Assembly: GCA_949398305.1 (NCBI GenBank)
Contig: CASLVD010000006.1
Location: forward strand, 1-48,726
Source: an uncultured Candidatus Melainabacteria bacterium
GTDB lineage: Bacteria > Cyanobacteriota > Vampirovibrionia > Gastranaerophilales > Gastranaerophilaceae
Direction: 5' to 3'
Length of the DNA: 48,726 nt
Position numbers and translations under genes: made by a program
Notes under the pieces: generated by a model
Database searches by the model: none
What the model saw: the letters and a program-made list of their open reading frames with translations, nothing else
Told to the model about the DNA's origin: nothing
Shown: in pieces, positions 1 through 25,919 of the stretch
How positions within the stretch are numbered: the first letter of the stretch is position 1
How the letters are laid out: each line of letters begins with the position of its first letter

Positions 1-12
1 GGGGGGGGGGGG
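1..12. repeat. Poly-G tract at the window edge
   Basis: At least 12 consecutive G open the window, followed by TAAC. They lie inside the leader-coding part of the pseudopilin gene. A second pseudopilin gene at 25180 has the same arrangement, a G run followed by TAAC ahead of FTLAE. True length cannot be known because the window begins inside it. Confidence 0.8.
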
Positions 13-817
13 TAACCTTTTTAGCCTTAATTTAGGCGGGTTTCAGCTATCTCCTAGAAAAGCATTTACTTTAGCCGAAGTTTTGATTACTTTAGGCATA
101 ATTGGTGTAGTTGCTGCAATGACTATTCCGAATTTAATCGCTAATGCGCAAAAAAAATCTGTAGTATCAGGACTTCAGGAAGCGCAATCTATTTTAAATC
201 AGGCGGTTAAAATGTATTCTTATGAGTCTGATGAAGAAGGTACAGGGGATTTTGATACAAGTTTAGATTCAAAATCTTTTGCCAAAAAATATTTTGAACC
301 GTACTTAAAAGTTGCACGGGTTTGTGAAAACAAGTCTGATGGCTGTTGGAAAACCGAGAACTTCTACGGTTATTACGATTTAGGAATGAACCGCAAAACT
401 GATACTATTAAATACAGTCTTGTGTTAAATAATGGTATGATAGTTGGCTTTGGTAAAATAGACGGTACAAACCTGCATTCAATAATTGTTGATATTAATG
501 GTCAGGGCAGGCGGAATGTAATGGGTAAAGATGTATTTGTTTTTTATCCGTTTAACAGTGAAGCCTTATGTGAAGGTTATAATAAAGAAAAAGCTAAAAT
601 GATTAAAAACGGAATTTATCCGGGAAGTTTTGATAATTGCGGTGTCCCTCATGTTATTTTTTCAAGAGAGGATATTTTAGCACCAAATAAATTGCTTCGT
701 GCTTGTAACAAAGATGTAGCACCTGATGGCGGAGGTCGAACAGGTGCCGGTTCAGCGTGTGCGGCTTTAATATTTAAAGACGGTTGGAAAATCAGCCGCG
801 ATTATCCATGGAAATAG
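2..817 (+). CDS. Type IV pseudopilin, 5' end outside the window
   Basis: Small secreted pilin-like protein with the class III (prepilin) signal AFTLAEVLITLGIIG, which in this family is cut by prepilin peptidase just before the Phe and then anchors or assembles through its hydrophobic helix. The frame is open back to base 2 and reads poly-Gly from a run of at least 12 G, then a leader of about 25 residues before FTLAE; the true start is not in the window. A TTG at 83 would remove the processing motif, so I reject it as the start. The globular part has several Cys and the shared pattern D-x-N-G-(x)3-x-N-x-x-G-K-D. It ends GWKISRDYPWK, almost as the 24160-24846 paralogue does. Function beyond pilin-like assembly is unknown. 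Confidence 0.85.
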   Translation, partial: GGGGNLFSLNLGGFQLSPRKAFTLAEVLITLGIIGVVAAMTIPNLIANAQKKSVVSGLQEAQSILNQAVKMYSYESDEEGTGDFDTSLDSKSFAKKYFEPYLKVARVCENKSDGCWKTENFYGYYDLGMNRKTDTIKYSLVLNNGMIVGFGKIDGTNLHSIIVDINGQGRRNVMGKDVFVFYPFNSEALCEGYNKEKAKMIKNGIYPGSFDNCGVPHVIFSREDILAPNKLLRACNKDVAPDGGGRTGAGSACAALIFKDGWKISRDYPWK

Positions 818-16228: not shown

Positions 16229-17092
16229 TTATTTTGCAGTTTTTAAAACATATCTTGCCGCCGCTGTTGCAGGTTCAACAATTCCGTCATGGAATCTGAT
16301 CGGATATACGTCAGTGAGGTGTTTTGTATCATTTTTTACAATACAGGTTTTATTTGCATTTAGTGATTCTGAACCTTTAGAACAACTAACTTCTTTGTTT
16401 GGTAAATTCGTTCCGTTAACATCAATAAAACCATAGCACATACTTGTTCCGTTACCATCGGCAGATTCTGTTTTTATTGATGTACCTATCCTTAAACTGC
16501 ATCCGTTATTTTGACCTAAAACATTGACAAATCCTATTATTATGCCGTCAGAGAGTACATATGCCATGTAATTTGATAATTCTTTTCCCTGAGCATTAAA
16601 GAAATATGAGTTTTCAATGTTGTAATTTTGTTGAGAACCTTTTTTATTTATTTTTATATCAGTAGCTTTTGTATAAAATGTTGCACCTGTTAATGTGCCG
16701 TTCAAAATTGCGCAAATAGTTTGAGTTTGTTCGGGGTTCTCATTTGCTGCGTTTGCTCCGCATTGTGCTGAGATACCTGCATAATCAAACCCGTATTGAG
16801 CTTGTGACATTCTTGCGGCTTGAGACAGAGTAGATATTGTTTTCTTTAAACGTGAACGATATTGTTGTGAGCGGGTGTTTGCAATAAGTGTCGGAATTGT
16901 CATAGCTGCTACGACACCGATTATACCAAGGGTGATTAAAACCTCAGCCAAAGTAAAACCCTCCTCGGCCGGAGTGGGCACTTTGCTACAAACCTTAGCA
17001 CCTATTACATCAATCCACGACCTGCGGTGCTCAACCGGTGGCATAGCTACGTGTGTAGCACCTTCTGCTAAAGTAAAACCTTTTTTATACAT
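16229..17092 (-). CDS. Type IV pseudopilin with an in-frame leader insertion
   Basis: Pilin-like protein whose N-terminus carries GFTLAE twice: at residues 5-10 and again at 45-50. Only the second runs into the hydrophobic helix VLITLGIIGVVAAMTIPTLI, so the mature protein probably begins at the second Phe. The 34 residues between (11-44, starting GATHVAMPPVEHRR) come from a GC-rich insertion. The globular domain has many Cys. Its VDVNGTNLPN motif matches the paralogues, but the following GKD is missing. AGGAGG precedes the ATG. It is divergent from an HTH gene across 111 bp that contain a perfect 26-bp palindrome. Confidence 0.85.
   Translation of the reverse strand: MYKKGFTLAEGATHVAMPPVEHRRSWIDVIGAKVCSKVPTPAEEGFTLAEVLITLGIIGVVAAMTIPTLIANTRSQQYRSRLKKTISTLSQAARMSQAQYGFDYAGISAQCGANAANENPEQTQTICAILNGTLTGATFYTKATDIKINKKGSQQNYNIENSYFFNAQGKELSNYMAYVLSDGIIIGFVNVLGQNNGCSLRIGTSIKTESADGNGTSMCYGFIDVNGTNLPNKEVSCSKGSESLNANKTCIVKNDTKHLTDVYPIRFHDGIVEPATAAARYVLKTAK
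16943..17080 (-). repeat. GC-rich insertion flanked by FTLAE-coding repeats
   Basis: Two 18-bp copies of the GFTLAE codons (17063-17080 and 16943-16960, 15 of 18 bases the same) enclose 102 bp (16961-17062) with about 56% G+C by my count, far above its surroundings. The reading frame is kept. The insert holds GCTAC-ACAC-GTAGC, a small inverted repeat, near its beginning. Since the leader ahead of the second FTLAE should be cut off, the insertion need not alter the mature pilin. Confidence 0.75.
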
Positions 17093-24954: not shown

Positions 24955-25167
24955 ATGAATGAAATTAAGGCAAAAATTAAAATGCTTGTTATATCTCGGG
25001 GAATGACGCTGAAATCTCTTGCTGAAAAACTTACTGTGTTAACAGGAGAGGAATATTCTTATAACAGTCTTTTGGGAAAATTAAACCGAGAAAGTTTATC
25101 ATTAAAAGAAGCAGGATATATTGCTAAGATTTTGGACTATAAAATAGAATTTATTAGTATAAAATAA
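24955..25167 (+). CDS. Small HTH regulator between two pseudopilins
   Basis: A 70-aa protein with an HTH-like helical fold (MLVISRGMTLKSLAEKL ... YNSLLGKLNRESLSLKEAGYIAKILDYKIEFI). It resembles the 44339-44563 protein in length and in the pattern of an N-terminal charged helix, then S-L-A-(E/Q), then K-L-R/N-R, then a final ILxYxxxF. It lies divergent to one pseudopilin gene and directly upstream, on the same strand, of another (25180). TATAAT (24940-24945) ends 9 bases before the ATG with no ribosome site, so a leaderless mRNA is possible. Likely local regulator. Confidence 0.8.
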   Translation: MNEIKAKIKMLVISRGMTLKSLAEKLTVLTGEEYSYNSLLGKLNRESLSLKEAGYIAKILDYKIEFISIK

Positions 25168-25179
25168 AGGAGAAAAAGT

Positions 25180-25919
25180 ATGAAAAAACACACTATGAAT
25201 GAAATTCGGGGGGGGGTAACTTTTACTGCTCCTTAGGTTTTACACTGGCAGAGGTATTAATAACTCTTGGGATAATCGGCATTGTTGCGGCGATGACAAT
25301 ACCGACTTTAATGACAAAGATTCAAAAGCGTAAACTTGAAACACAGCTTAAAGAAACATATTCTGTAATTCAACAAACTATGAAAGCTGCAGAAGGTGAT
25401 GGGGCAAATTTTCAGACAGCATTTCAAGATGGTTCTAATGAAGTAATGAAAGAATGGTTTGAAGAATTTATTCAGCCACATTTAAAAACAGAGTCAGTAT
25501 GCTATAACAAAGCTGGCTGCTGGCATAAAAAAGGTGAAGCAAAACTTTTGAATGGTGCTTTACAAAATTGGGAACAACAATCCGGCTGGGGAATAAATAC
25601 TATAACTTTTACTATTGCAAAAGGTGCCTGGTTTAATATGGACGGACATTCTGTTAGTAGATGCAATTCAATGTTCGGAATAGATACAAATACTCAATGT
25701 CTTGTAATTTATTTTGATATAAACGGTGCAGATAAACCGAATATTTTAGGCAAAGATATTTATACTGTTGTACAAACTGAAAAAGGGCTTTTACCTGCCG
25801 GTAGTGACAGGACAAAAGCTCAGGTTAATCAAAATTGTAATACCGGTGACGGGCATTTTTGCCTGCAAAAAGTTATAAATGACAGTTTTACTATTTCTGA
25901 AAAAGTTTTAAAAAGGTAA
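25180..25919 (+). pseudogene. Type IV pseudopilin, out of frame at a 9-G tract (possible phase-off state)
   Basis: ATG 25180 follows AAAGGAG and reads 18 codons (MKKHTMNEIRGGVTFTAP) to TAG at 25234-25236. The pilin frame, one base off, reads GGNFYCSL then GFTLAEVLITLGIIGIVAAMTIPTLM and continues open to 25919. No usable start lies between the TGA at 25200 and FTLAE; the ATG at 25293 would drop the processing site. Ten G instead of nine would join the two frames. The mature part is intact, with FDINGADKPNILGKDIY and several Cys, so either a tract-length switch or a sequencing error is more likely than decay. Confidence 0.75.
25208..25216 (+). repeat. Nine-G homopolymer in a pseudopilin leader
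   Basis: Nine consecutive G between the start codon and FTLAE, followed by TAAC as at the window start. Long G runs are exceptional in so AT-rich a genome and are the classic substrate of slipped-strand length change. Confidence 0.85.

Follow-up and report, generated by a model that had tools for sequence, protein, structure and literature searches.

Poly-G tracts in the leaders of pilin-like genes of a gut Melainabacteria genome: candidate slipped-strand switches, mostly OFF in the assembled consensus

Two pilin genes with a poly-G leader

The window (the whole stretch of DNA analysed, 48,726 nucleotides) is the entire contig C6 of a genome of 1.92 Mb in 109 contigs, and its edge is therefore a contig end. 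It carries two genes for pilin-like proteins in which a run of G precedes the prepilin motif (Table 1). The sequence starts with 12 G followed by TAAC, as a preliminary description had it, and the same G-run-TAAC is found in the second gene. Throughout the window, G runs have lengths of 1 to 5, and then only of 9 and 12. In the edge gene a frame is open from base 2 (GGGGNLFSLNLGGFQLSPRKAFTLAEVLITLG...) and passes through FTLAEVLITLGIIGVVAAMTIPNL to the stop at 817.

Table 1. Features of the two tract-bearing pilin genes of the window
Feature	Position	Strand	Remarks
Poly-G tract, at least 12 G	1..12	+	Contig starts within the tract; nine G in the ortholog; C24 ends at the preceding C
Remainder of the leader, ON frame GNLFSLNLGGFQLSPRKA, to be cleaved before F at 65-67	13..64	+	Cleavage predicted from the N_methyl motif
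Type IV pilin-like protein, ON frame, 5' end open	2..817	+	96% identity and dN/dS of 0.05 relative to the ortholog
Ribosome binding site (AAGGAG), second pilin with a tract	25167..25172	+	By eye
Short OFF-frame ORF from ATG, MKKHTMNEIRGGVTFTAP then stop	25180..25236	+	Translation
Poly-G tract, nine G, then TAAC	25208..25216	+	Sequence; preceded by ATGAAAAAACACACTATGAATGAAATTC
Second pilin, FTLAE to stop	25239..25919	+	-1 frame relative to the ATG

Segment 2-814 contains the prepilin motif, scoring 24.1 bits for PF07963 (N_methyl), where the cut-off is 21.2. For segment 25215-25916 the PF07963 score is just under the cut-off (20.9 versus 21.2), and that of TIGR02532 is above it (19.9 versus 16.3). 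Neither pilin reaches the cut-off of the GspG major pseudopilin equivalog (28.8 and 25.2 bits, versus 88.85). The edge pilin is 37% identical to a pilin of a Candidatus Gastranaerophilales MAG; this match and the general appearance of the pilins make a placement in that lineage probable. Glycine residues had been proposed ahead of FTLAE in the edge gene; they join FTLAE at some tract lengths but not at 25180, where the assembled length of nine is OFF and the frame of the ATG runs into a stop.

Five further pilins of the window have no tract (16229, 24160, 33276, 43562 and 47866). The one at 16229-17092 has the FTLAE motif twice in its leader, with EGATHVAMPPVEHRRSWIDVIGAKVCSKVPTPAEE in between; similar leader inserts were seen in contigs C22 and C90 of the same genome (GATHVAMPP) and in the related genome G116 (ATHVG-type).

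The edge gene is split at its tract

A pilin 96% identical to that of the edge gene was found in the genome of a close relative, G126, on contig CATLLN010000001.1 (uncultured MAG, 606 kb). The leader of this ortholog is complete, with AAAAGGAGAAAGTGT, ATG, 28 nt, nine G and TAACTG, and both halves of the gene are contiguous. In the genome under study, contig C24 (23,799 bases) stops at the C directly 5' of the tract; it matches the 995 bases preceding the tract of the G126 ortholog at 96%, and its end carries a ribosome site, an ATG and 28 nt, including the final C. We conclude that C24 and C6 hold the two parts of the edge gene, which is interrupted at the G run. Since the G126 contig joins both halves through nine Gs, the tract belongs to the genome and caused the assembly to break there, as had been suspected. 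The upstream sequence, for which an adaptor or poly-G artefact had been envisaged, is likewise genomic, being found on C24 and in the G126 ortholog. Contigs C55, C66 and C89, considered as upstream partners of the window, were rejected in favour of C24.

As C6 begins inside the tract, the true tract length is uncertain, and the assembled value of at least 12, lying at a contig end, cannot be trusted. With an upstream flank of 28 nt and the FT of the motif 52 nt past the tract, lengths of 10 or 13 would be ON. The break is not an isolated one: four contigs of the genome stop just before a tract, at its upstream border (C24, C55, C66 and C89), and four start at one (C6, C38, C60 and C72), and these eight ends are what mixed lengths or difficult sequencing would give. 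Scaffolds of genome G075 have NN within or adjoining poly-G tracts (G075:C1, L156 and L170), which indicates that another assembly breaks at tracts too. A more distant ortholog of the edge pilin (L276, 69% identity) has a short leader without a tract; the tract can therefore be gained or lost.

G runs of the genome are concentrated in pilin leaders

Genome-wide, 88 G8 positions were found, compared to 3 to 8 expected by chance, and they merge into 36 runs of 8 G (2 runs), 9 G (23), 10 G (6), 11 G (3) and 12 G (2). Of these runs, 26 are followed on their own strand by a prepilin motif no more than 400 nt downstream, and two more (C20:25105 and C97:47) are copies of the leader cut by a contig end, which brings the pilin leaders to 28 of 36 and leaves 8 runs elsewhere. 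The clustering of G runs in pilin leaders, and with it the idea of a recurrent element, is thus borne out, the runs not being equally frequent in unrelated genes. Prepilin motifs were taken from a PF07963 scan giving 128 rows, of which 124 were used for tract distances; the remaining 4 are short additional stretches within a frame already counted. A set of 124 to 128 prepilin-motif hits is unusually large for 1.9 Mb.

The 26 pilin tracts of this genome have lengths of 8 (1 tract), 9 (17), 10 (4), 11 (2) and 12 (2). A start was scored for 21 of them, and 20 of these lie 28 nt past the ATG, the exception being C48, scored at 61 nt. The two leaders of the window had been described as unrelated; on the contrary, both have 28 nt between ATG and tract, then the tract and TAAC, like most copies in the genome. 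The bases following the 36 runs are TA in 33 cases and TAAC in 17. We rejected TAAC as a universal DNA motif: since other genera have CGAT, CACT, CACAGG and others after the tract, it is a lineage feature. The exact cassette pattern of the genus, which is too specific, gave no match in either the genome contigs or the viral contigs searched.

Between tract and FTLAE the distance ranges from 22 to 277 nt in this genome and is nearly always 1 modulo 3. This interval contains in many leaders (for example L048, L040 and L063) in-frame palindromic repeats of the type GTCATTCCGG...CCGGAATGAC. A CTCCT complementary to the ribosome site AGGAG follows the tract in 15 of 22 leaders of this genome and in 11 of 17 of G126, and codon use may contribute to these counts.

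The eight runs outside pilin leaders include the 3' end of a cytidylyltransferase gene (presumably KdsB-like), an acyltransferase-3 gene, a LysM/EF-hand protein and the N-terminal part of a starch-synthase-like protein. In the LysM/EF-hand case (L054, C29:16963), a G10 tract splits the protein into an ORF of 375 amino acids and, downstream, one of at least 480 in another frame, and this may be a phase-variable large surface protein.

Tracts in other genomes of the family

Anchored runs of nine or more G were present in 97 of 117 family genomes, some of them not in pilins, and pilin-leader tracts were confirmed in 14 genomes. Other genomes of the family have G or C tracts of 7 to 14 at the same position of the pilin leader. 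Leaders with a C tract between the start codon and FTLAE were found in G044, G058, G061, G068, G099 and G116; in some genera these tracts are C9 to C13, and the flanks are lineage-specific. In G007, locus L320 (G007:C3, about 225962) has an intact pilin frame and an interrupted tract, GGGCGGGG, which keeps the usual total length and is still out of frame. Orthologous loci were also sought through a histidine-kinase anchor: the relatives so found are too distant (55 to 66%), with no pilin in L215-L219 scanned for tracts.

In genome G014, TAAACCGCTCATACCA or TGAATGCTAAAACTTC comes after tens of G10 runs (for example L148, L155 and L162). No pilin was found at the five G-run loci sampled there, and these runs are another recurrent G-run element.

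Tract lengths and reading frames

Frames were scored for 143 pilin tracts of 14 genomes from start codons that have a ribosome site and are joined to the tract by an open frame; the set omits tracts near N and, outside G126, those shorter than 8. The loci of G007 and G041 are a non-random sample, because they were picked mostly from a list that required TAAC. A start was found for 133 tracts (10 had none). The -1 frame, where one extra G would restore the frame of the pilin, was the commonest with 88, ahead of the +1 frame with 26, and the pilin was in frame in 19. For the genome under study the corresponding numbers were 14, 4 and 3, with 5 tracts without a start. The frame was -1 for all 18 pilin tracts of G126 (one of them of length 7), for all 11 of G022, and for 8 of the 10 poly-C leaders scored, and mostly +1 in G041. 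One tract of G022 has length 11, for which a flank shorter by one base compensates.

Among the 20 tracts of G126 with at least 8 G, every one is exactly 9, and lengths are also nearly uniform in G007. Paralogs spread over 9 to 12 in G058, 11 to 14 in G041 and 8 to 12 in our genome. Comparison of the latter with its G126 orthologs gave G10 and G9 at the C31 locus, G8 and G7 at C48, and at least 12 and G9 at C6. The modal length is 8 in G007, 9 in our genome and G126, and 10 in G022, with the same -1 frame in each. As in repeat-based contingency loci, a homopolymer of 8 to 14 lies in the reading frame near the 5' end, and the frame table and OFF peptides indicate that one length yields the full protein and others an early stop.

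Selection on the pilins

Comparison of the edge pilin with its G126 ortholog over 250 codons gave a dN of 0.020 and a dS of 0.372, that is, a ratio of 0.05. For ten tract pilins, dN/dS against the best match in G126 (identity above 60%) ranged from 0.05 to 0.29. Control genes from the same stretches gave 0.02 to 0.17, with one outlier at 0.28 that is a pilin fragment, as are a few other rows of this control list. The pilins thus stay intact under purifying selection, and the proteins are used, even though the consensus frame is usually OFF.

Slipped-strand switching and its alternatives

A common layout emerges, with a ribosome site, an ATG, about 20 to 40 nt, a tract of G8 to G14 or C9 to C13, and behind it a frame that is open as far as FTLAE and continues into an intact pilin. 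Whether the ATG is in frame depends on tract length, and most assembled states are OFF. On the basis of these sequences, the tracts are probably slipped-strand contingency switches placed in cleaved pilin leaders, mostly OFF in the consensus. Polymerase slippage would add or remove a G, and most copies would stand one G short of or beyond ON. A cell in the ON state would make a prepilin with a few extra glycines, to be removed along with the leader by the prepilin peptidase; because the glycines would leave with the cleaved leader, the mature pilin should be unaltered. Each cell of the population would then display a different small subset of the many pilins, and one may guess at a benefit in phage escape, attachment or host immunity.

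The rates of tract insertion and deletion published for Campylobacter jejuni (Table 2 in the available part of PMC8224891) lead to a stationary length distribution with a peak at 9 (43%) and 24% at 10. A mixed population at such rates would therefore have a consensus of 9 at each locus, which fits the genome under study and G126 if their rates are similar, as is assumed. Slipped-strand switching that is mostly OFF is preferred because of this peak at 9 combined with the flanks of our genome, which make 9 OFF and 10 ON. ON states do exist (19 of the 133 scored tracts), which supports switching. Also in its favour are the concentration of G runs in pilin leaders, their recurrence in the family, the length differences among paralogs and between some orthologs, the low dN/dS of the pilins, the contig ends lying at tracts, and the tracts in cytidylyltransferase, acyltransferase and LysM genes. 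Against it stand the uniformity of G126, with a P of about 2e-7 for single clones under the C. jejuni rates taken from that part of the source; the interrupted tract of G007, which should hardly switch; and the 69% ortholog that has no tract. At equilibrium, a mixed population would give a uniform-looking consensus as well, but this is an argument rather than a test.

Programmed recoding, with the G run as a slippery site for ribosomal -1 frameshifting or for an RNA polymerase adding a G, would give a low and fixed pilin level, selection holding tract length constant. It would account for the prevalence of the -1 frame over the whole set, its exclusive use within G126 and G022, its conservation at different modal lengths and its predominance among poly-C leaders, as well as for strong purifying selection despite the OFF frame. 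Yet the 26 tracts in +1 and the 19 in frame are unexpected under this hypothesis, as is the mostly +1 G041, so that the frame is invariably -1 within two genomes and not over the 133 tracts. Moreover, a stimulatory RNA structure downstream of the run, as expected at a frameshift site, was not found in five genomes: the 60 nt past the tract showed no excess of structure, mean fold z being close to 0 (-0.19, -0.27, 0.00, 0.17 and 0.25). We consider recoding unlikely. In dnaX-type programmed -1 frameshifting, a homopolymeric slippery run is combined with an early frame-0 stop and a product in the -1 frame. The pilin leaders resemble it in their homopolymeric run, in the stop soon after in frame 0 and in the pilin lying in the -1 frame; they differ in that the downstream structure is lacking and other frames are common. 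There is a similarly small chance that a genome-wide recoding code exists, in which the tracts are not random switches: a G or C run would hold tens of pilin genes in each of several genera exactly one base off their frame, and expression would depend entirely on -1 frameshifting or transcriptional slippage. If so, a single change in how efficiently slippage occurs could readjust all the pilins together.

A passenger role, in which the G run came with one ancestral leader, does little by itself and spread among pilin genes as part of the leader cassette through recombination or gene conversion, is rather improbable. The long sequence common to leaders of our genome on both sides of the tract would fit such a spread, as would the different leaders at orthologous loci of this genome and G126 (L047/L294 and L055/L289) and the tracts with a similar TAAC flank in non-pilin genes. 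Across genera, however, the flanks are unrelated and C tracts replace G tracts at the same place, and a functionless tract should decay, yet length and frame are narrow in range. That the window starts exactly within a tract could also point to an artefact of sequencing or assembly arising where contigs end, a reading to which we give hardly any chance: most copies are internal to contigs, the ortholog is contiguous in an independent assembly, and the upstream half was recovered on C24. An artefact is thus refuted as regards the existence of the tract, the exact length at the contig end remaining doubtful.

Relation to known systems

Poly-G contingency loci are known mainly from pathogens, such as Campylobacter and Neisseria. 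Non-photosynthetic gut relatives of cyanobacteria (probably Candidatus Gastranaerophilales) seem to apply them to dozens of pilin-like genes. A search by title and abstract, with preprints and most subscription journals outside its range, found no report of pilin poly-G switches in Gastranaerophilales, Vampirovibrionia or Melainabacteria. Type IV pilus genes have been described in a termite Gastranaerophilus, in a paper whose available part mentions no tracts (PMC5877343).

The accessible text of PMC5354566 describes two gonococcal cases that invite comparison. The pilC genes of Neisseria gonorrhoeae have homo-guanine tracts in the signal peptide region; as here, a pilus gene has a G tract in its cleaved N-terminal part, and the length of the tract decides the frame. 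PilC, however, is a pilus-tip and assembly protein with two copies, whereas here tens of pilin-like subunits per genome have the tract in a prepilin leader. In the opa family, CTCTT pentamer repeats lie in the leader-coding region of outer-membrane proteins. The likeness lies in a gene family whose members are each switched separately by a repeat in the leader, cells showing none to several variants; the repeat here is instead a homopolymer and the proteins are pilin-like. A further comparison is with C. jejuni NCTC11168, for which the portions available of PMC4965091 and PMC8224891 give 29 polyG/polyC contingency loci: G tracts of at least 7, a comparable number per genome, a length peak near 9 and ON/OFF switching by frame are common to both. 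The present tracts belong to another phylum, are concentrated in one pilin-leader family and are mostly OFF in the consensus.

A switch in a leader that is cut off would never alter the mature filament protein. The tracts explain why such genomes break at these spots, and automatic annotation would be expected to label many tract genes as frameshifted or to misplace their starts. With the consensus OFF for most tracts, these data are the starting point for a clean test of phase variation versus programmed frameshifting.

Strand distribution of tracts and pilins

In the window, both tract pilins are on the (+) strand and all five tract-less pilins on the (-) strand; over the tract-bearing contigs of the genome, 25 tract-less pilins are on the strand opposite to the G run and 14 on the same strand. 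All G runs are on one strand in 19 of the 24 contigs that have at least two pilin tracts, and the three contigs with both G- and C-tract pilins all keep G on one strand. On contigs C1 and C2 of G126, 11 of 12 tracts lie on the strand whose GC skew is positive. Ordinary GC skew alone may account for the location of G runs on one strand.
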